A stretch of 39,302 nucleotides of DNA from Crocinitomicaceae bacterium (GTDB lineage: Bacteria; Bacteroidota; Bacteroidia; Flavobacteriales_D; Crocinitomicaceae): contig JAIOZF010000020.1 in NCBI GenBank assembly GCA_021740745.1, positions 1 through 39,302 on the forward strand. The letters are read 5' to 3'. The position numbers were made by a program, and so were the translations under genes. This document shows positions 31,907 through 38,723 of this stretch, in pieces. A model generated the notes under the pieces. The model had not been told where the DNA came from. It made no database searches and saw only the letters and a list, made by a program, of their open reading frames with translations. The stretch's first letter is position 1; the number at the start of each line of letters is the position of its first letter.

Positions 31907-33964
31907 ATGAAAAGAATACTACTTCAAATATTTATTTTTACAATTTTTAGCTTTTCATCAGTAGCCCAAGATACTTTGCGGTCAAACACTGCTGATACAA
32001 TTGATTTTTCTAATTATTCATTGGAAGAATTAATTAAAATGAAATCTACTTACAAATCAACTGAAATTGAAAAATTAATTAATGAATCCATAGAAATATC
32101 GGCTAGAAAACCGCTTTCTTTGAAAAAAAGTCCTTCAGTCGTTTCAGTGCTAACAACAGAAGAAATTGAAAGATCGGGTTCTAATAACTTGATGGATCTT
32201 TTAGAATTAATTCCTGGAATTCAATTTAACGCAGATGTGCAAGGCACTATTGGAATTTCTATTAGAGGACTATGGGCGCAAGAAGGAAAAGTTTTGTTGT
32301 TGCTGGATGGTCAAGAAATAAATGAAATAGCTTATGGATCAATTCAATTTAATCAACAATATCCTGTTTCACAAATAAAGCGAATTGAAGTCATCAGAGG
32401 ACCTGGTTCTGCTTCTTATGGAGGATATGCAGAATACGCTGTAATAAATGTGATAACGAAGGATGGCTCAGACTTAAATGGACTTCATGTGAGTTCTTTG
32501 GTTGGTCAAACAGCCCTTACATATGCGCAGCAAAATATATCGATTTCTTATGGGCAAAAAATCAAAGATTTTTCATATTCGTTGAGTGGGTATTATTCTC
32601 GAGGACAAAGAAGTGATCAGCAATATTCTGATATTTATGGGAATTCATATTCTATGAAAGGAAATTCTCAATTAAATTCCTTCAATCTGAATATCGGCGC
32701 GAATTATAAAGGCTTCAGTATGAGATTTATTAAGGACGATTCATACATGACACAGCGTGACAACTATGTTTCAAACTTATCGAAGCCTGATAAACAATAT
32801 TTCTTAAATTCATTGGCGGAATTAAAGTATCAAAATTACTTAAGTAAAAAATTTCAGTTACTCGTAAAGGTTAATTTTAAAAATGGTGAACCATGGAAAA
32901 ACACAGATGTTAAAGATTCTATGGATTATTCCTCATATTACAACATTATTACAAATCGTTATCGAGTAAATGTTTCCGGGATAATAGATATAAACCGAAT
33001 AATTAATTTGACCATTGGATTAGAAAGTTTTTATGACCAATCAATTACAAAATTAACTCCCGAGACACAAATAAAAGCTAACTATTTAAACAATTCAGCT
33101 TTTATTCAAGCATTGATAAAAACTAGATTTGCAAATGTAACCATTGGGGGTAGGTATGATAGAAATACTTCTTTTGGTTATGCGTTCAATCCGCGTATAG
33201 GCGTTACCAAGAAGATTTCTATTTTTAATTTTAAAGCATTATATGCATCCTCGTTTAGAGCACCTGCAATCGAAAATATATTGAATGCTATTAATAATAC
33301 TATTGTGCCCGAAAAATCTGCTACATTGGAATTTGAAGTTGCTACTCAGATAAACAGAAATTCCTATTTATCTTTAAACGTGTATGACATAAAGACCAAA
33401 AATGCCATTCGATATTTTATCTTTAATGATTCGATAAACAACATTGATATAGAAGGATATGAGAATCATTCGAGTCGTATAGGTACAAAAGGGCTGGAGA
33501 TAGAATATAAGTACATTTCTAAAAAATGGACACTATCTTCTTCGTATTCTTTCTACTCTGCTGATAGATTCGAAGATTTTGACTCAACCATTCAAGTCAA
33601 AGGAAGTGCTTATTCTAATTTAGGAATTGCAAATCATAAAATTACCCTAATGAGCTCAATCAATTTTGGTGAACATTTCTTTGTAACGCCTTCAGTGATT
33701 ATTTTGGGAAATCGTTACGGTTATAATTCATTAGATAGTTTAGGTGCTGGGATTCTAAATAAGTATGATCCGCAAATTTCATTAAATATATATTTCAGTT
33801 ACAAAAATATAATAAAAGGCTTATCATTAGGTTGTGGAGTTCAGAATATTTTGAATGAAGAAATTTTGTATATTCAACCCTACAATAGTCTTCACAACGC
33901 ATTGCCTGGTATGGGACGTCAATTTAATTTGAATTTAACCTATTTATTACCTTTGAAGAATTGA
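31907..33964 (+). CDS. TonB-dependent outer membrane receptor
   Basis: 685 residues. Signal peptide 1-20 (ends SSVAQ). An N-terminal linker (SLEELIKMKSTYKSTEIEKL) precedes the plug domain about 65-185: PLSLKKSPSVVSVLTTEEIE, RSGSNNLMDLLELIPGIQFN, RGLWAQEGKVLLLLDGQEIN, VIRGPGSASYGGYAEYAVIN. The barrel runs to the C terminus, with the usual segments GGRYDRNTSFGYAFNPRIG, SSFRAPAIENILN and NHKITLMSS. The SusC-type N-terminal carboxypeptidase-like domain is absent. The S-L-E-E-L-I-K-M opening is common in receptors paired with sensor kinases or DUF4154 proteins. Ligand unknown. The stop overlaps the TTG start of the kinase gene. Confidence 0.92.
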   Translation: MKRILLQIFIFTIFSFSSVAQDTLRSNTADTIDFSNYSLEELIKMKSTYKSTEIEKLINESIEISARKPLSLKKSPSVVSVLTTEEIERSGSNNLMDLLELIPGIQFNADVQGTIGISIRGLWAQEGKVLLLLDGQEINEIAYGSIQFNQQYPVSQIKRIEVIRGPGSASYGGYAEYAVINVITKDGSDLNGLHVSSLVGQTALTYAQQNISISYGQKIKDFSYSLSGYYSRGQRSDQQYSDIYGNSYSMKGNSQLNSFNLNIGANYKGFSMRFIKDDSYMTQRDNYVSNLSKPDKQYFLNSLAELKYQNYLSKKFQLLVKVNFKNGEPWKNTDVKDSMDYSSYYNIITNRYRVNVSGIIDINRIINLTIGLESFYDQSITKLTPETQIKANYLNNSAFIQALIKTRFANVTIGGRYDRNTSFGYAFNPRIGVTKKISIFNFKALYASSFRAPAIENILNAINNTIVPEKSATLEFEVATQINRNSYLSLNVYDIKTKNAIRYFIFNDSINNIDIEGYENHSSRIGTKGLEIEYKYISKKWTLSSSYSFYSADRFEDFDSTIQVKGSAYSNLGIANHKITLMSSINFGEHFFVTPSVIILGNRYGYNSLDSLGAGILNKYDPQISLNIYFSYKNIIKGLSLGCGVQNILNEEILYIQPYNSLHNALPGMGRQFNLNLTYLLPLKN

Positions 33965-36450
33965 GATTTAGTGTAACACGTAAGCTTGGTAGCACCTACC
34001 TATTAATAATTGTTGTTTCTTTAATTTTTTCATTACTGAGCGCTATTCAATTAAATCGTTATCGAAATCTTGATAATGAATATTCTCTTGTAATATTACC
34101 TTCAATTGTCAGTTTAAAAAAAGCTGTAAATCAAACAGCGGATTTGAATGGAAAGTATAAAAGTTGGATATTCCTATCTGATCTAAGCGAACGAGAAAAA
34201 ATAAATAGCTTATATGAAGGTGATTATAAAAAAAATATTGCTTCCATAACTAGAACTTTCGAATTATCAAAAAAAACGGAAGATATAAAGACCTTGCATT
34301 CGATTAATGAAATCAACGATAAAATTTTTCGGAACACAAAAATTATTAATACTAATTTGAATAATATAGAAGCATTTTTTGATGAGAATAAAGTGAATGA
34401 ATCGGTTATCAACTTTCAGGACTCAATCGAACCTTTTTTAGATAAAAACTTAGCTTCTTACAAACTTCTTTTAGAACAAAGTATTAAACGCCAATCACTA
34501 ATTAACCAGAAGAAAGAAAATTATTTTTCGAGTGTTTCTAGTATGTTTATTTTATCGATTATTGCTATTGCAATAATTAGTTTGTTCTCACTTTTTTATA
34601 CGCGTAGAAGAATACTAAATCCATTAATTACGCTTGAAGAGATCGTAAGAGATATCTCTATTGGAGAAATAAATAAAGTTCCTGTTAATCATAAAAGTGA
34701 TGAAATTGCGCAAATGCAAAATTCATTAGGAAACATGATTGATGGTCTTATTGAAAAAATAAATTTTTCGAATGAAATAGGAGAAGGTAATTATAACGCT
34801 TCATTGAATGTTTTAAATGAAAAAGACAAATTAGGAAATTCTTTGATTGAAATGTCAAGGAAACTTAGAAAAAATGATCAAGCAATTAATGAATTTCAAC
34901 TTTCTTTAAAAAATGCCCAGTCAATCGCAAAAATGGGGAATTGGGAATATAATTTAGAAAATGAAAATTTCTTTTGGTCGGATGAATTATATATGATTTT
35001 TGAATTCGAAGAGAAGAATTCATTCAAAGAAATTCGCGATGCTTTTAATGCAAAAATTCATCCTGATGAAAAATCATATTTTGATAACATCTTTAACTTT
35101 ATTGATAAACATTTTAGTTTTGAGCAACGCATAATTTGCAAGGATGGATCCATCAAATATCTCTATGCCAAAGGCTATGTGGAGAGAGAATATCAAAATA
35201 GTTCAAAAAACAGAATTATTAAAGGTGTTTTCCAAGATATTACAGAACGTAAAATCATTGAACAAGAGCTTGAATTGTCTAAATTGAATGCTGAAAAGTT
35301 GGCTAAATCTCGGGATGAATTCATGTCTGGAATGAGTCATGAAATTAGAACGCCACTGAATGGAATAATGGGTTTTACGAGCTTGTTGGTCGATAATGAC
35401 AATTTCACCTTAGAACAAAAGAAATATATTAATGCAATAAAATCATCTGGAGAAATTTTATTGGTGATCATTAACGATATTCTTGACATGGCAAAAATTG
35501 AAGCTGGTAAAATGAATATTGAACAGATTCCTGTATCGCTTCAAGTGGTCTTGTCAGCAGTTTTAGATGCCTTTAATATTAAAATACTGGAGAATAAAAT
35601 AAAATTAAAAGTAAATATTGATCCTGAAATACCAGATTTATTTTTGTCCGATCCAGTGCGAATTTCACAGATATTTTACAATTTAATTAGTAATGCTGTG
35701 AAATTCACTTCGCTTGAAGATGAAATTAAAATTGACATTACAATTGATCAAGATTCAATTGATAAATTGACATTGAAATTTATCATTACGGACTCAGGAA
35801 TTGGAATACCGAAAGAAAAGCATGAATCTATCTTTAGTCCTTTTATTCAAAGTAATGATGACACTTCCAGATTGTACGGCGGAACGGGATTGGGCTTGTC
35901 AATTGTTAAAAAAATAATTTTGTTGATGGGTGGGTCAATTACAGTTGAAAGTGAATTAGGGAAAGGAGCTAAATTTACTTTTTACATACCCGTAAATAAG
36001 GTGAAAGAGGATATATCTAAATTGATATCTGGTAAAGAAGATACTGATGGGGCAAACAGTGCTTTAGCCCAAAGTGATAAAATAAAGATTTTGGCTGCAG
36101 AGGATAATCCTATAAATCAACTTTTATTAACCGCAATTTTAAAGCAGATTAATGCTGAATTCATAATTGTGGAAAATGGCCAAATTTTATTGGACGTGTA
36201 TAAAGAGAAAAACTTCGATGTTATTTTAATGGATTTGATGATGCCAGTCAAAGATGGTTTTCAATCGACCATTGAAATAAGAAATTTGGAAGATAAAATG
36301 AAAAGCGAAATTCCAATTATCGCCGTTTCGGCAGATGTGACAGAGATGGTTACAATAAAATGTAAACAAATTGGAATGAGTGGATATCTTTCTAAGCCAT
36401 TTGTTAAGAACGATTTAGTGGAGATTATTGAACGTTTAATAAAGCAATAG
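33961..36450 (+). CDS. Hybrid sensor histidine kinase/response regulator
   Basis: 829 residues from a TTG that overlaps the receptor stop (TTGA), so translation is coupled; no alternative start precedes the first membrane helix. Order: TM1 about 13-31, periplasmic helical sensor 32-190, TM2 about 192-212, HAMP 214-265, PAS about 315-425 (GNWEYNLENENFFWSDELY, then GVFQDITERK), HisKA with MSHEIRTPLNGIMGF (His460), HATPase with NLISNAVKFTS (N box), DSGIGIPKE (G1) and YGGTGLGLSIVKKI (G2), and a receiver domain about 705-829 with ILAAEDNPINQ and VILMDLMMP (Asp758). No DNA-binding or cyclase output is fused and no response regulator follows in the window. The periplasmic helical bundle is a candidate contact for the YfiR-like protein. 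Confidence 0.94.
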   Translation: MRFSVTRKLGSTYLLIIVVSLIFSLLSAIQLNRYRNLDNEYSLVILPSIVSLKKAVNQTADLNGKYKSWIFLSDLSEREKINSLYEGDYKKNIASITRTFELSKKTEDIKTLHSINEINDKIFRNTKIINTNLNNIEAFFDENKVNESVINFQDSIEPFLDKNLASYKLLLEQSIKRQSLINQKKENYFSSVSSMFILSIIAIAIISLFSLFYTRRRILNPLITLEEIVRDISIGEINKVPVNHKSDEIAQMQNSLGNMIDGLIEKINFSNEIGEGNYNASLNVLNEKDKLGNSLIEMSRKLRKNDQAINEFQLSLKNAQSIAKMGNWEYNLENENFFWSDELYMIFEFEEKNSFKEIRDAFNAKIHPDEKSYFDNIFNFIDKHFSFEQRIICKDGSIKYLYAKGYVEREYQNSSKNRIIKGVFQDITERKIIEQELELSKLNAEKLAKSRDEFMSGMSHEIRTPLNGIMGFTSLLVDNDNFTLEQKKYINAIKSSGEILLVIINDILDMAKIEAGKMNIEQIPVSLQVVLSAVLDAFNIKILENKIKLKVNIDPEIPDLFLSDPVRISQIFYNLISNAVKFTSLEDEIKIDITIDQDSIDKLTLKFIITDSGIGIPKEKHESIFSPFIQSNDDTSRLYGGTGLGLSIVKKIILLMGGSITVESELGKGAKFTFYIPVNKVKEDISKLISGKEDTDGANSALAQSDKIKILAAEDNPINQLLLTAILKQINAEFIIVENGQILLDVYKEKNFDVILMDLMMPVKDGFQSTIEIRNLEDKMKSEIPIIAVSADVTEMVTIKCKQIGMSGYLSKPFVKNDLVEIIERLIKQ

Positions 36451-36846: not shown

Positions 36847-37086
36847 ATTGCACATTATAATATTCAAATGGACGACATTTTAATCGATTTGCATATTTAA
36901 TTATACTTTTTAGAATTACTAGTTGATTTTAGAAATGCGACCTATAATTCGCTATTTTAGATTTTCAGCAGTAAAATATAATTTTCGAACAACACTAAAA
37001 TATAGTTTTAATACAGAGAGAATGTTTATCAATTAGTTGAGGGGGAATTAAATACGACCTTAAATATTCAGAATATTTCTTAATTT

Positions 37087-37188
37087 TATATGTAAATGCA
37101 TATAATATAGATTATTTCGTTAAATATATATGCAAATACATATAATATTGTATATTTGATTAAAATTATATCTAAAAGCATATAATGA
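37087..37188 (+). repeat. Three 22-bp operator-like direct repeats, 40-bp period, at hipB
   Basis: Copies at 37087-37108 (TATATGTAAATGCATATAAT), 37127-37148 (TATATGCAAATACATATAAT) and 37167-37188 (TATATCTAAAAGCATATAAT). Starts are exactly 40 bases apart, about four helical turns, so all lie on one DNA face. The last copy includes the hipB ATG. Each is partly palindromic (TATATG...CATATA). They fit autoregulatory sites for the HipB protein. Confidence 0.72.
37151..37158 (+). promoter_or_regulatory. -7 promoter element (TATATTTG) of the hipBST-like operon
   Basis: Full TAnnTTTG match lying exactly between repeat copies 2 and 3. Copy 2 covers the -33 region and copy 3 covers the expected early transcript up to the start codon, so a protein bound to them would shut the promoter. 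Confidence 0.55.
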
Positions 37189-37403
37189 GAAATATAGCTG
37201 AATTTGTAAAAGAACGCCGAAAAGAAGTAGGATTGACACAAGAAGAGTTTGCCGAACGCACAGGTGTAGCACTTACCGTTATTCGAAAAATTGAACAAGG
37301 GAAATCCAATCTCAATATGGATAAGGTGAATCTAGTGCTCAAAATGTTCGGACACGAATTAGCTGCTGTTAGTAGCAAAGAACTAAAAGAATCTGAGTCA
37401 TGA
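37185..37403 (+). CDS. HipB-like XRE antitoxin/repressor
   Basis: 72 residues, one HTH domain: IAEFVKERRKEVGLTQEEFA, ERTGVALTVIRKIEQGKSNL, NMDKVNLVLKMFGHEL. Size and sequence are like the small HipB of hipBST-type modules. It should bind the three upstream repeats and repress its own operon (inference from layout). The stop overlaps the next start as ATGA (37400-37403), so the second gene is translationally coupled. Confidence 0.88.
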   Translation: MRNIAEFVKERRKEVGLTQEEFAERTGVALTVIRKIEQGKSNLNMDKVNLVLKMFGHELAAVSSKELKESES

Positions 37404-37735
37404 GACAGGCTAACATATACTACCAGGATAATCTTGCAGGTGTTCTCACCGAGACAGATGAAGGTGATTTTGTTTTTCGTTACGAAGACAACTATGTAAA
37501 AGAGCATCCAAATGATTTTATAACGTTTTCCATGCCCGTATCCGATGTGCCCTATCGAGAAAAAAGATTGTTTCCCTTTTTTGAAGGATTAATTCCTGAA
37601 GGTTGGTTATTGGATATCGCCTCAAAAAACTGGAAGATCAATAGAAACGACCGGATGGGACTTTTACTCGCGTGTTGTAAAAGTTGTGTCGGAGCGGTAA
37701 GTGTTGAACCAATAATTACAAGCGATGAAGCATAA
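37400..37735 (+). CDS. HipS-like protein (HipA N-terminal subdomain)
   Basis: 111 residues matching only the N-terminal subdomain 1 of HipA kinases: QANIYYQDNLAGVLTETDEG, FVFRYEDNYV, ITFSMPVSDVPYREKRLFPF, then FEGLIPEGWLLDIASKNWKI and GLLLACCKSCVGAVSV. In the E. coli O127 HipBST system the equivalent separate protein, HipS, is the actual antitoxin, and its Trp near residue 65 approaches the kinase active site. Trp69 in PEGWLL could be equivalent (inference). It overlaps hipB by four bases and the kinase gene by 11 bases, as one operon. The protein ends naturally, so this is a split gene by design and not a frameshift. Confidence 0.85.
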   Translation: MRQANIYYQDNLAGVLTETDEGDFVFRYEDNYVKEHPNDFITFSMPVSDVPYREKRLFPFFEGLIPEGWLLDIASKNWKINRNDRMGLLLACCKSCVGAVSVEPIITSDEA

Positions 37736-38669
37736 GTGTTTATACTGCTATCAACCATTAGAAACTTCAGGTGATTTTCATGAGAAATGCGCGAAGCAAT
37801 TTTTTGGTACAAGTGAAGTTCCTATTCTAACCTACTCGCTGAATGATATGTCAGAACTGGCAAAACAAGTTGTTGAACGAAGTGTTGCTGTGCCAGGAGT
37901 TCAACCGAAGTTATCTATGTCAATGATCAAAGAAAAAACAGATGGTCCCGAAAACCGACTAACTGTTGTTGGTGCATTGGGTGGGAATTACATTTTCAAA
38001 CCACCATCATCTGAACATTTTCCTGAAATGCCAGAGAATGAACATGTGACCATGCGCATTGCAGAAGCGTTCGGAATTAAAGTTGTTGAATCAAGTTTAA
38101 TACGATTACAATCTGGTGAACTTTCGTATATCACCAAGCGTATTGATCGGACAATCAAAGGAGAAAAGATTCATATGATAGATATGTTTCAAATCACAGA
38201 AGCATTCGACAAGTATAAAAGTTCAATGGAAAAAGTAGGAAAAGCACTCAGGGAAAATTCGGACAATACCTTTTTAGATCTTTTGTCTTTTTTTGAACTT
38301 AGCTTGTTCAGTTTTTTAACAGGGAATAATGATATGCACCTGAAGAATTTTTCCATGATCAAGACCCGTTCTGGTTGGACCTTGTCTCCTGCATATGATT
38401 TATTAAATGTTCGCATCGCTAATCCAGAAGATAAAGAAGAACTTGCACTAACGTTAGGTGGTAAGAAAAAGAAACTTAACCGTGTTTATTTTGAGCGATT
38501 CGGAGAAGGATTAGGATTGACTCCAAAACAAATTCAAGGAGTATTTAAACGCTTTGAGAAAAATAAAGAAAAGGCGATTACTTGGATTGATCAATCCTTT
38601 TTATCGAACATAATGAAAGAAGCCTATCTTGAGATTTTGAATGAACGCTATTCGAAAATAGCAAACTAA
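37725..38669 (+). CDS. HipT-like serine/threonine kinase toxin (split HipA C-terminal kinase)
   Basis: 314 residues. It has an N-terminal zinc-knuckle-like pattern C5-x2-C8-x10-H19-x2-C22. The kinase part follows: Gly-rich loop region VAVPGVQPKLSMS (54-66), PPSSEHFPEMPENEHVTMRI, TKRIDR, then GNNDMHLKNFSM (about 200-211), whose Asp203 is the expected catalytic base, and SPAYDLLNV (about 221-229), whose Asp225 would hold metal. GNNDMHLKNF is closer to HipT than to classic HipA. In HipA (Ser150) and HipT (SIS motif) an autophosphorylated Ser precedes GxQxK; here those positions read A-V-P (55-57). Known HipA and HipT target aminoacyl-tRNA synthetases (GltX and TrpS); the target here is unknown. 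Overlap of 11 bases with the HipS-like gene. Confidence 0.9.
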   Translation: MKHKCLYCYQPLETSGDFHEKCAKQFFGTSEVPILTYSLNDMSELAKQVVERSVAVPGVQPKLSMSMIKEKTDGPENRLTVVGALGGNYIFKPPSSEHFPEMPENEHVTMRIAEAFGIKVVESSLIRLQSGELSYITKRIDRTIKGEKIHMIDMFQITEAFDKYKSSMEKVGKALRENSDNTFLDLLSFFELSLFSFLTGNNDMHLKNFSMIKTRSGWTLSPAYDLLNVRIANPEDKEELALTLGGKKKKLNRVYFERFGEGLGLTPKQIQGVFKRFEKNKEKAITWIDQSFLSNIMKEAYLEILNERYSKIAN

Positions 38670-38689: not shown

Positions 38690-38723
38690 TGGATTATCGC
38701 ATATCGCGATATGCGATAATCCA
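38690..38723. repeat. Perfect 34-bp palindrome downstream of the hipT-like gene
   Basis: Centre at 38706/38707 (ATATCGCGATAT core); left half TGGATTATCGCATATCG, right half its exact complement. It lies 20 bases after the kinase stop and is followed by ATTTTCTATTTTTCC. As RNA it would form a long hairpin before a T-rich stretch and could end the operon. A perfect loopless palindrome is unusual for a terminator, so a protein-binding or recombination site is also possible. Confidence 0.7.

Follow-up and report, generated by a model that had tools for sequence, protein, structure and literature searches.

Two tripartite HipBST operons are the closest described relatives of the locus analyzed here: HipBST(Lp) of Legionella pneumophila (lpg2368-2370; PMC9325769, PMC10653801; PDB codes 7vkb, 7vkc, 7wcf and 8ezr) and HipBST(Ec) of Escherichia coli O127:H6 (PMC10627512; PDB codes 7ab3-7ab5). 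Whether Hip kinases depend on P-loop autophosphorylation is disputed: HipA needs it, the reports on HipT(Ec) contradict each other, and HipT(Lp) can dispense with it (PMC10653801, PMC9325769, PMC10627512). A serine beside the Gly-rich loop has been described for HipTs (Gerdes 2021, PMC8262856); HipG kinases, which lack both the N-subdomain and a conserved Ser/Thr at that place, are the published precedent for serine-less Hip kinases, but are encoded with an Stl-like HipR and not with HipB and HipS (PMC8262856). Because x-x-T HipTs have been published (PMC10627512) and the residue alternates among relatives, the loop serine is not treated here as a defining feature of HipT. A wide distribution of HipBST(Lp) homologues across Bacteroidota and allied phyla has been reported, with 86 representatives (PMC10653801). 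The present locus belongs to a Crocinitomicaceae bacterium (contig JAIOZF010000020.1); the whole stretch analyzed, 39,302 nucleotides, is referred to as the window. Its HipT kinase carries an alanine at the disputed position.

The locus comprises three open reading frames (ORFs) on the + strand, with overlaps of 4 bp (hipB/hipS) and 11 bp (hipS/hipT), and each product has a family match (Table 1), which bears out the gene order proposed in an earlier sequence-only reading. The hipB product, a helix-turn-helix (HTH) protein, scores 72.4 bits against TIGR03070 (couple_hipB), slightly over the cut-off of 71.65. Among solved chains, window HipS is closest to HipS(Lp) (5.6e-13), followed by HipS(Ec) (3e-10), and the best match of window HipT is HipT(Lp) (4.9e-46; HipT(Ec), 5.8e-19). 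N-subdomain-1 is encoded as a separate protein between the HTH gene and hipT, and HipT lacks this subdomain but has the catalytic and metal-binding motifs, as in HipBST modules in the broad sense; the full-length HipA with a fused N-subdomain-1 that defines HipBA is not encoded here, since the N-subdomain lies on its own gene. The locus shares with HipBST(Lp) the gene order, the overlapping genes and a 72-residue HipB (PMC9325769), as well as three upstream 18-nt operators with 6-nt arms (PMC10653801), which are putative in the window, and resembles HipBST(Ec) in being a tripartite operon (PMC10627512). An AlphaFold model of HipT has a mean predicted local distance difference test (pLDDT) value of 89.6, and its best fold match is HipT(Lp) (7wcf; Z 37.6, root mean square deviation 1.9 over 302 residues). 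The inverted repeat behind hipT folds with -23.5 kcal/mol (z -7.64), a stability equaled in 0 of 200 shuffles. The explanation that we prefer as a whole, with a probability of about 0.75 that covers the type of locus and the mechanism jointly, is that the three genes form a complete HipBST-type operon, a tripartite type II toxin-antitoxin system in which HipS alone would restrain the kinase sterically and HipB would repress the operon at its operators.

Table 1. Features of the hipBST locus, with positions counted from the first nucleotide of the window.
Feature	Position	Strand	Basis or remark
Direct repeats of 40 nt, three in tandem at an exact 40-nt period, one palindrome each	37080..37199	+	copies 100/78/70% identical
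Putative HipB operator TATATG-N6-CATATA (18 nt), perfect	37087..37104	+	
Putative HipB operator, perfect	37127..37144	+	
Putative HipB operator, one mismatch	37167..37184	+	adjoins hipB start codon (37185)
hipB, 72-residue HTH protein, probable DNA-binding repressor	37185..37403	+	TIGR03070, PF01381 2.4e-12
hipS, 111-residue HipA N-subdomain-1 protein, probable antitoxin	37400..37735	+	PF13657 9.3e-24, TIGR03071 1.7e-27
Codon of HipS Trp69, which corresponds to Trp65 of HipS(Ec)	37604..37606	+	P-E-G-W aligned to HipS(Ec) P-E-G-W
hipT, 314-residue HipA_C kinase, probable toxin	37725..38669	+	PF07804 1.6e-45
HipT C5-x2-C8-x10-H19-x2-C22, putative zinc knuckle	37737..37790	+	exact motif
HipT Gly-rich (P-)loop A55-V-P-G-V-Q-P-K62	37887..37910	+	A55 and P57 at both known autophosphorylation positions
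HipT catalytic motif G200-NNDMHLKN208 (D203, H205, N208)	38322..38348	+	
HipT metal-binding D225 codon (AYDLL)	38397..38399	+	
Perfect 17+17-nt inverted repeat directly 3' of hipT, then T-rich run; probable terminator hairpin	38690..38723	+	

In sequence alignments to the solved chains, the window segment S53-V-A-V-P-G-V-Q-P-K pairs without gaps with K-M-S-V-Q-G-V-Q-K-K in HipT(Lp), and the loop is aligned over the Ser-to-Ala mutant chains of HipT(Ec), M-A-I-S-G and M-S-I-A-G. In these alignments, A55 is the counterpart of Ser54 of HipT(Lp) and of Ser57 of HipT(Ec), and P57 that of Ser59 of HipT(Ec); the absence of serine from both known autophosphorylation positions, noted in the sequence-only reading, thus holds. 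An alignment artefact was considered and rejected, as two alignments with HipT(Lp) run from S53 through K62 without a gap, one of them having a one-residue gap directly before S53. The A-V-P of the window differs accordingly from the S-V-Q of HipT(Lp), which keeps Ser54, and from the double site S57-I-S59 of HipT(Ec). It falls outside both the S-x-Q subgroup (S-[VI]-Q, grouping with HipT(Lp)) and the S-x-S subgroup, which has serine at both 57 and 59 where the window has A55 and P57. Since Ser53 sits two residues ahead of A55, the loop region is not serine-free; serine is missing only from the two positions known for autophosphorylation. HipA Ser150 probably corresponds to the same site, judging from phmmer end points (window residue 54 paired with chain position 149 of 3tpb). 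The kinase motifs are intact, as had been stated: D203, H205, N208, D225, K62 and K92 are all present, and none of them varies among the 87 close relatives.

To place the locus among its relatives, 170 HipTs were aligned and sorted by the N-terminal CCHC motif of HipT, by identity to the window and by one catalytic-loop residue. Group G1 (n = 87) has the motif and shares 60% identity or more with the window, G2 (n = 47) has it at 38-50% identity, and G3 (n = 17) and G4 (n = 19) are without it. The sample is skewed to near relatives of the window. A contig scan confirmed at least 562 relatives, and the 80 best were retained; the whole-genome samples come from the phylum of the window only, where 82 of 395 genomes (its own included, all HipT groups together) have a match at E <= 1e-20. 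The census covers part of these matches; some, such as fragments and weak ones, were left aside, as were the copy of the window itself (L001) and two longer HipA-like kinases of the host genome (L002 and L003). The latter have frames of 442 and 429 residues, about 30% identity over the matched part and the loop G-x-S-A-G-G-A-R-P-K. Two hipT relatives, L116 (G137:C7) and L194 (G587:C160), have in-frame stops; L116, which still has hipS and hipB upstream, was used only up to its stop. One G3 HipT, L149 (G135:C30), has a frame of 434 residues, a length that alone would suffice for a HipS-HipT fusion. A hipS match precedes 169 of the 170 HipTs and a hipB match was obtained for 152; the 18 misses are 17 in the divergent G3 and G4 and one contig that starts at hipT.

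Residue 55 is variable in the HipTs with the CCHC motif (A76 S32 T25 C1; n = 134) and serine in all 36 without it. By group, the counts are A62 S21 T4 in G1, T21 A14 S11 C1 in G2, 17/17 Ser in G3 and 19/19 Ser in G4. In an enlarged set drawn from more genomes, from which L002 (a HipA outlier) and L194 (a row without the loop) were set aside, the CCHC sequences gave A75 S35 T26 C1 (n = 137) and those without the motif that have the loop gave Ser in 57 of 57. Alanine is the commonest residue at this position in the subtype and is no oddity of the locus; the A-V-P loop had been presented as a peculiarity, which does not survive the finding of Ala55 in 62 of 87 close relatives and 76 of 134 CCHC HipTs. 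When the CCHC and position-55 columns were left out, the resulting FastTree tree had G1, G3 and G4 each as one side of a branch with a local support of 100, and the four groups need 3 changes, the minimum. By parsimony within G1, position 55 requires 15 changes, a rough number and possibly an over-count given the many unsupported branches, against 0 or 1 at positions 56-60 and 62-64; position 61 needs 9, and 200 of the 314 columns need fewer than position 55. As judged from these sequences, position 55 behaves as a tolerant site that would demand only a small side chain.

By its sequence, the window locus lies within a large CCHC HipBST subtype (G1 and G2) that is distinct from the groups of HipT(Ec) and HipT(Lp), having both the C-x2-C...H-x2-C at the HipT N-terminus and the Trp of HipS. 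With the G3 profile, HipT(Lp) reaches 492 bits, compared with 272 for the profile of G1 and G2 and 174 for that of G4, and the subtype of the window therefore differs from the HipT(Lp) group. As G1 and G2 (134 rows) were defined by the motif, counting it there would be circular; the exact motif is, however, found in 81 of the 81 nearest HipT sequences, window included, which were picked by similarity alone, so that its earlier description stands. The four motif positions read C-T-S-G in HipT(Lp); in HipT(Ec), those of H19 and C22 are S and G, and those of C5 and C8 fall outside the aligned part. In the AlphaFold model, HipT residues 1-10, 11-20 and 21-30 have mean pLDDT values of 88, 91 and 92. 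The motif probably binds zinc, which would stiffen the N-lobe. No mention of zinc or of a CCHC motif in HipT was found in the open-licence literature searched; the word zinc is absent from the main text of PMC10653801 and PMC9325769, and in PMC10627512 it appears only within a reference title. The subtype is common in the sampled genomes and apparently unstudied, with no characterized member found in the HipBST literature examined. Members have probably been included in the tree of Baerentsen 2023 (Fig. 5, PMC10627512), since its T[IV][TP] group has the loop signatures TVP, TIP and TIT that many CCHC sequences share. The part of that text consulted gives (S/T)-x-P and x-x-T but no A-x-P, and the section names neither CCHC nor operators.

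The conservation of HipS points to how such a kinase may be held in check. Trp69 is kept in 86 of 86 G1 and 45 of 47 G2 sequences and in 2 of 17 of G3, and E67-x-W69 of the window matches Glu63-x-Trp65 of HipS(Ec). In the solved E. coli complex, Trp65 is wedged at the Gly-rich loop of HipT and is required, and the conformation of the loop is independent of phosphorylation (PMC10627512). HipS(Lp), which has Ile/Met where window HipS has Trp (PMC10653801), displaces the HipT P-loop such that ATP cannot bind (PMC10653801, PMC9325769). HipT of the window would be an active Ser/Thr kinase that stops growth if free, its target probably being an aminoacyl-tRNA synthetase or another translation factor. 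The antitoxin would be HipS, which represents the N-subdomain of HipA as a separate protein and would act on the N-lobe, with Trp69 wedged beside the Gly-rich loop so as to hold it out of the ATP site. Such a brake is steric and needs no serine, leaving position 55 free to be Ala, Ser or Thr. From this conservation and from the E. coli and Legionella complexes, we infer that HipS alone probably restrains the kinase. The HipS-like protein had been named before as a possible restraint, a proposal that the retention of Trp69 and the published neutralization by HipS favor. The accompanying premise, that known members inhibit themselves by phosphorylation, is correct for HipA and fails for HipT(Lp), of which both S54A and S54D remain toxic (PMC10653801). 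The kinase activity of HipT(Lp) is likely Ser-independent (PMC9325769); together with the phosphorylation-independent loop of the E. coli complex (PMC10627512), these reports imply that no replacement brake is needed, and largely close the regulatory gap that the loss of serine had seemed to leave.

Autophosphorylation could still regulate HipT if it had moved to Ser53, Ser64 or Ser66, the last two of which were earlier suggested as substitutes. All three are well retained in G1 (Ser53 in 83/87, Ser64 in 87/87, Ser or Thr at 66 in 87/87). Ser64 is, however, present in 164 of the 170 HipTs, including 34 of the 36 without CCHC, all of which keep Ser55; it thus appears to be structural throughout the family and was rejected as a substitute. 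Residue 66 could be a phosphosite, but is Ser or Thr in all G1 rows whether residue 55 is Ala, Ser or Thr. Ser53 is missing from two Ala55 rows (L046 and L047), and in the sister group G2, where Ala55 occurs in 14 of 47, Ser53 and Ser/Thr66 are each found in 5 of 47. As neither Ser53 nor Ser66 follows the loss of Ser55, a substitute phosphosite is less likely, and we consider a relocated autophosphorylation quite unlikely.

HipB dimers would bind the three palindromes upstream of hipB, where HipT and HipS would join them as partners in repressing the operon. A scan of the 39.3-kb window returned only these 3 matches at <=1 mismatch, with 0.16 expected, and 0 of 100 shuffles reached 3. The stretch that separates the second palindrome from the third seems to hold a putative Bacteroidota-type -7 promoter element. 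Among the relatives, with dinucleotide shuffles as the control, three or more operator-like sites were found in 73 of 84 G1 regions (29/840 shuffled) and 31 of 47 G2 regions (12/470 shuffled), with intervals of 39-42 bp in 153 of 165 and 72 of 76 cases, respectively. The arms in G2 are mostly TATACC-N6-GGTATA. Three sites occur in 5 of 7 G3 regions (2/70 shuffled), with mostly TTACTG-like arms and 10 of 10 intervals at 70-73 bp, and in 0 of 12 G4 regions, where 5 of 6 intervals measure 60-62 bp. A second finder applied to a larger set yielded arrays in 81/85, 40/52, 22/31 and 13/25 regions of G1, G2, G3 and G4, and in 12, 2, 1 and 2 shuffled regions. Its misfits are 3 of the 22 G3 arrays (periods 41, 51 and 24), 2 of the 81 from G1 and 1 of the 40 from G2; the half periods that it gave (35-36 in G3, 30 in G4) are read by us as harmonics of 71 and 61. 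The G4 arrays are the weakest of the four groups.

The period of the array thus varies with the HipT group, being mostly 39-41 bp with CCHC HipTs, about 71 bp with the HipT(Lp)-like ones and about 61 bp with the S-I-S group. HipBST(Lp) has its sites 53 bp apart, a 71-bp period against the 40 of the window, and 18-nt sites with 53-bp gaps are reported for nearly all species (PMC10653801), a Legionella layout that the G3 period equals. The authors state that their operator motifs are absent upstream of hipBST(Ec) (PMC10653801), and in the HipBST literature examined, as far as consulted, no account was found of a 40-bp-spaced TATATG-N6-CATATA array before hipB. From 40 to 61 and from 61 to 71, the period grows by 21 and 10 bp, or roughly two helical turns and one, which would leave the rotational relation between neighboring sites nearly the same in all groups; this phasing is suggested by three period values. 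A bolder proposal, which we hold tentatively and as rather doubtful, is that CCHC modules form a third mechanistic class. P-loop autophosphorylation would be wholly given up, and control would be exerted only by HipS, through the Trp wedge and a zinc-stiffened N-lobe, and by a HipB array of three phased operators, the period of which (40 bp in the window, ~61 and ~71 bp with the remaining groups, each about a whole number plus 0.8 helical turns) fixes the rotational geometry of the repressor-toxin assembly on DNA.

Several points weigh against steric restraint by HipS under HipB-operator repression. HipT(Ec) S57A loses toxicity, and S59A nearly so (PMC10627512), and a kinase with Ala55 might accordingly be weak or non-toxic. 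HipT(Lp), in which the serine proved dispensable, is of another group (G3) than the window. The P-loop is modeled at low confidence, with mean pLDDT values of 61 (residues 51-60) and 74 (residues 61-70). The neighboring position 54 (Val/Ile) needs 16 changes within G1, next to the rough 15 of position 55, and 57 of the 166 inner branches of the tree have less than 80% support, with long-branch warnings. The CCHC motif changes once on the tree, which makes its link to the loss of serine a single event; a statistical association between CCHC and Ser55 was dropped for this reason. Fewer than three operator sites were found in 11 of 84 G1 and 16 of 47 G2 regions, and the literature yielded no experimental work on a CCHC member.

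The first of these points opens the possibility that HipT no longer stops growth, Ala55 marking a weakened or domesticated kinase that serves mainly as a co-repressor with HipB of its own promoter. HipT(Ec) S57A was reported as non-toxic yet autophosphorylating, which its authors attribute to a probable loss of target binding (PMC10627512); a conflicting report describes the same mutant as toxic (PMC9325769), and HipT(Lp) S54A is toxic as well (PMC10653801). The catalytic residues are unchanged across the close relatives, and Ala, Ser and Thr alternate at position 55 with hipS kept in 86 of 87 G1 loci, the remaining contig starting at hipT. Domestication therefore seems unlikely to us.

The locus could also be a three-gene unit for defense or for the maintenance of a mobile element, its kinase acting against phage and not on host translation generally. 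HipT (1.1e-11) and HipS (3.2e-4) have weak PADLOC matches to the candidate defense models PDC-M03A/PDC-M03B, and the presence of HipT in the phylum is patchy, as the survey of 395 genomes indicates. The PADLOC matches are partial, however, covering HipT 88-225 and HipS 14-62, and as weak matches to candidate models they were not used for an assignment. Six stretches of viral contigs fitted the search pattern and none (0/6) was confirmed as a relative, which leaves no phage link, and the neighboring genes resemble, by eye, ordinary chromosomal ones. A role in defense or element maintenance is thus very unlikely.

Upstream of the locus, positions 33961-36450 encode a hybrid histidine kinase (PAS, HisKA, HATPase and receiver domains), preceded at 31907-33964 by a gene that is outer-membrane receptor-like by eye. 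A small ORF near the contig end (38852-38974; 40 residues) has no Pfam match and may be a gene remnant.

What deserves to be kept from this analysis is the CCHC subtype, the natural Ala/Ser/Thr series at a disputed site, the Trp-bearing HipS and the regular three-operator promoter. The CCHC motif is a simple marker of a HipBST subtype, and the operator arrays are a direct handle on autoregulation. In a natural family whose acceptor position is mostly Ala and alternates with Ser and Thr, the question of P-loop autophosphorylation becomes testable on wild-type pairs instead of mutants.

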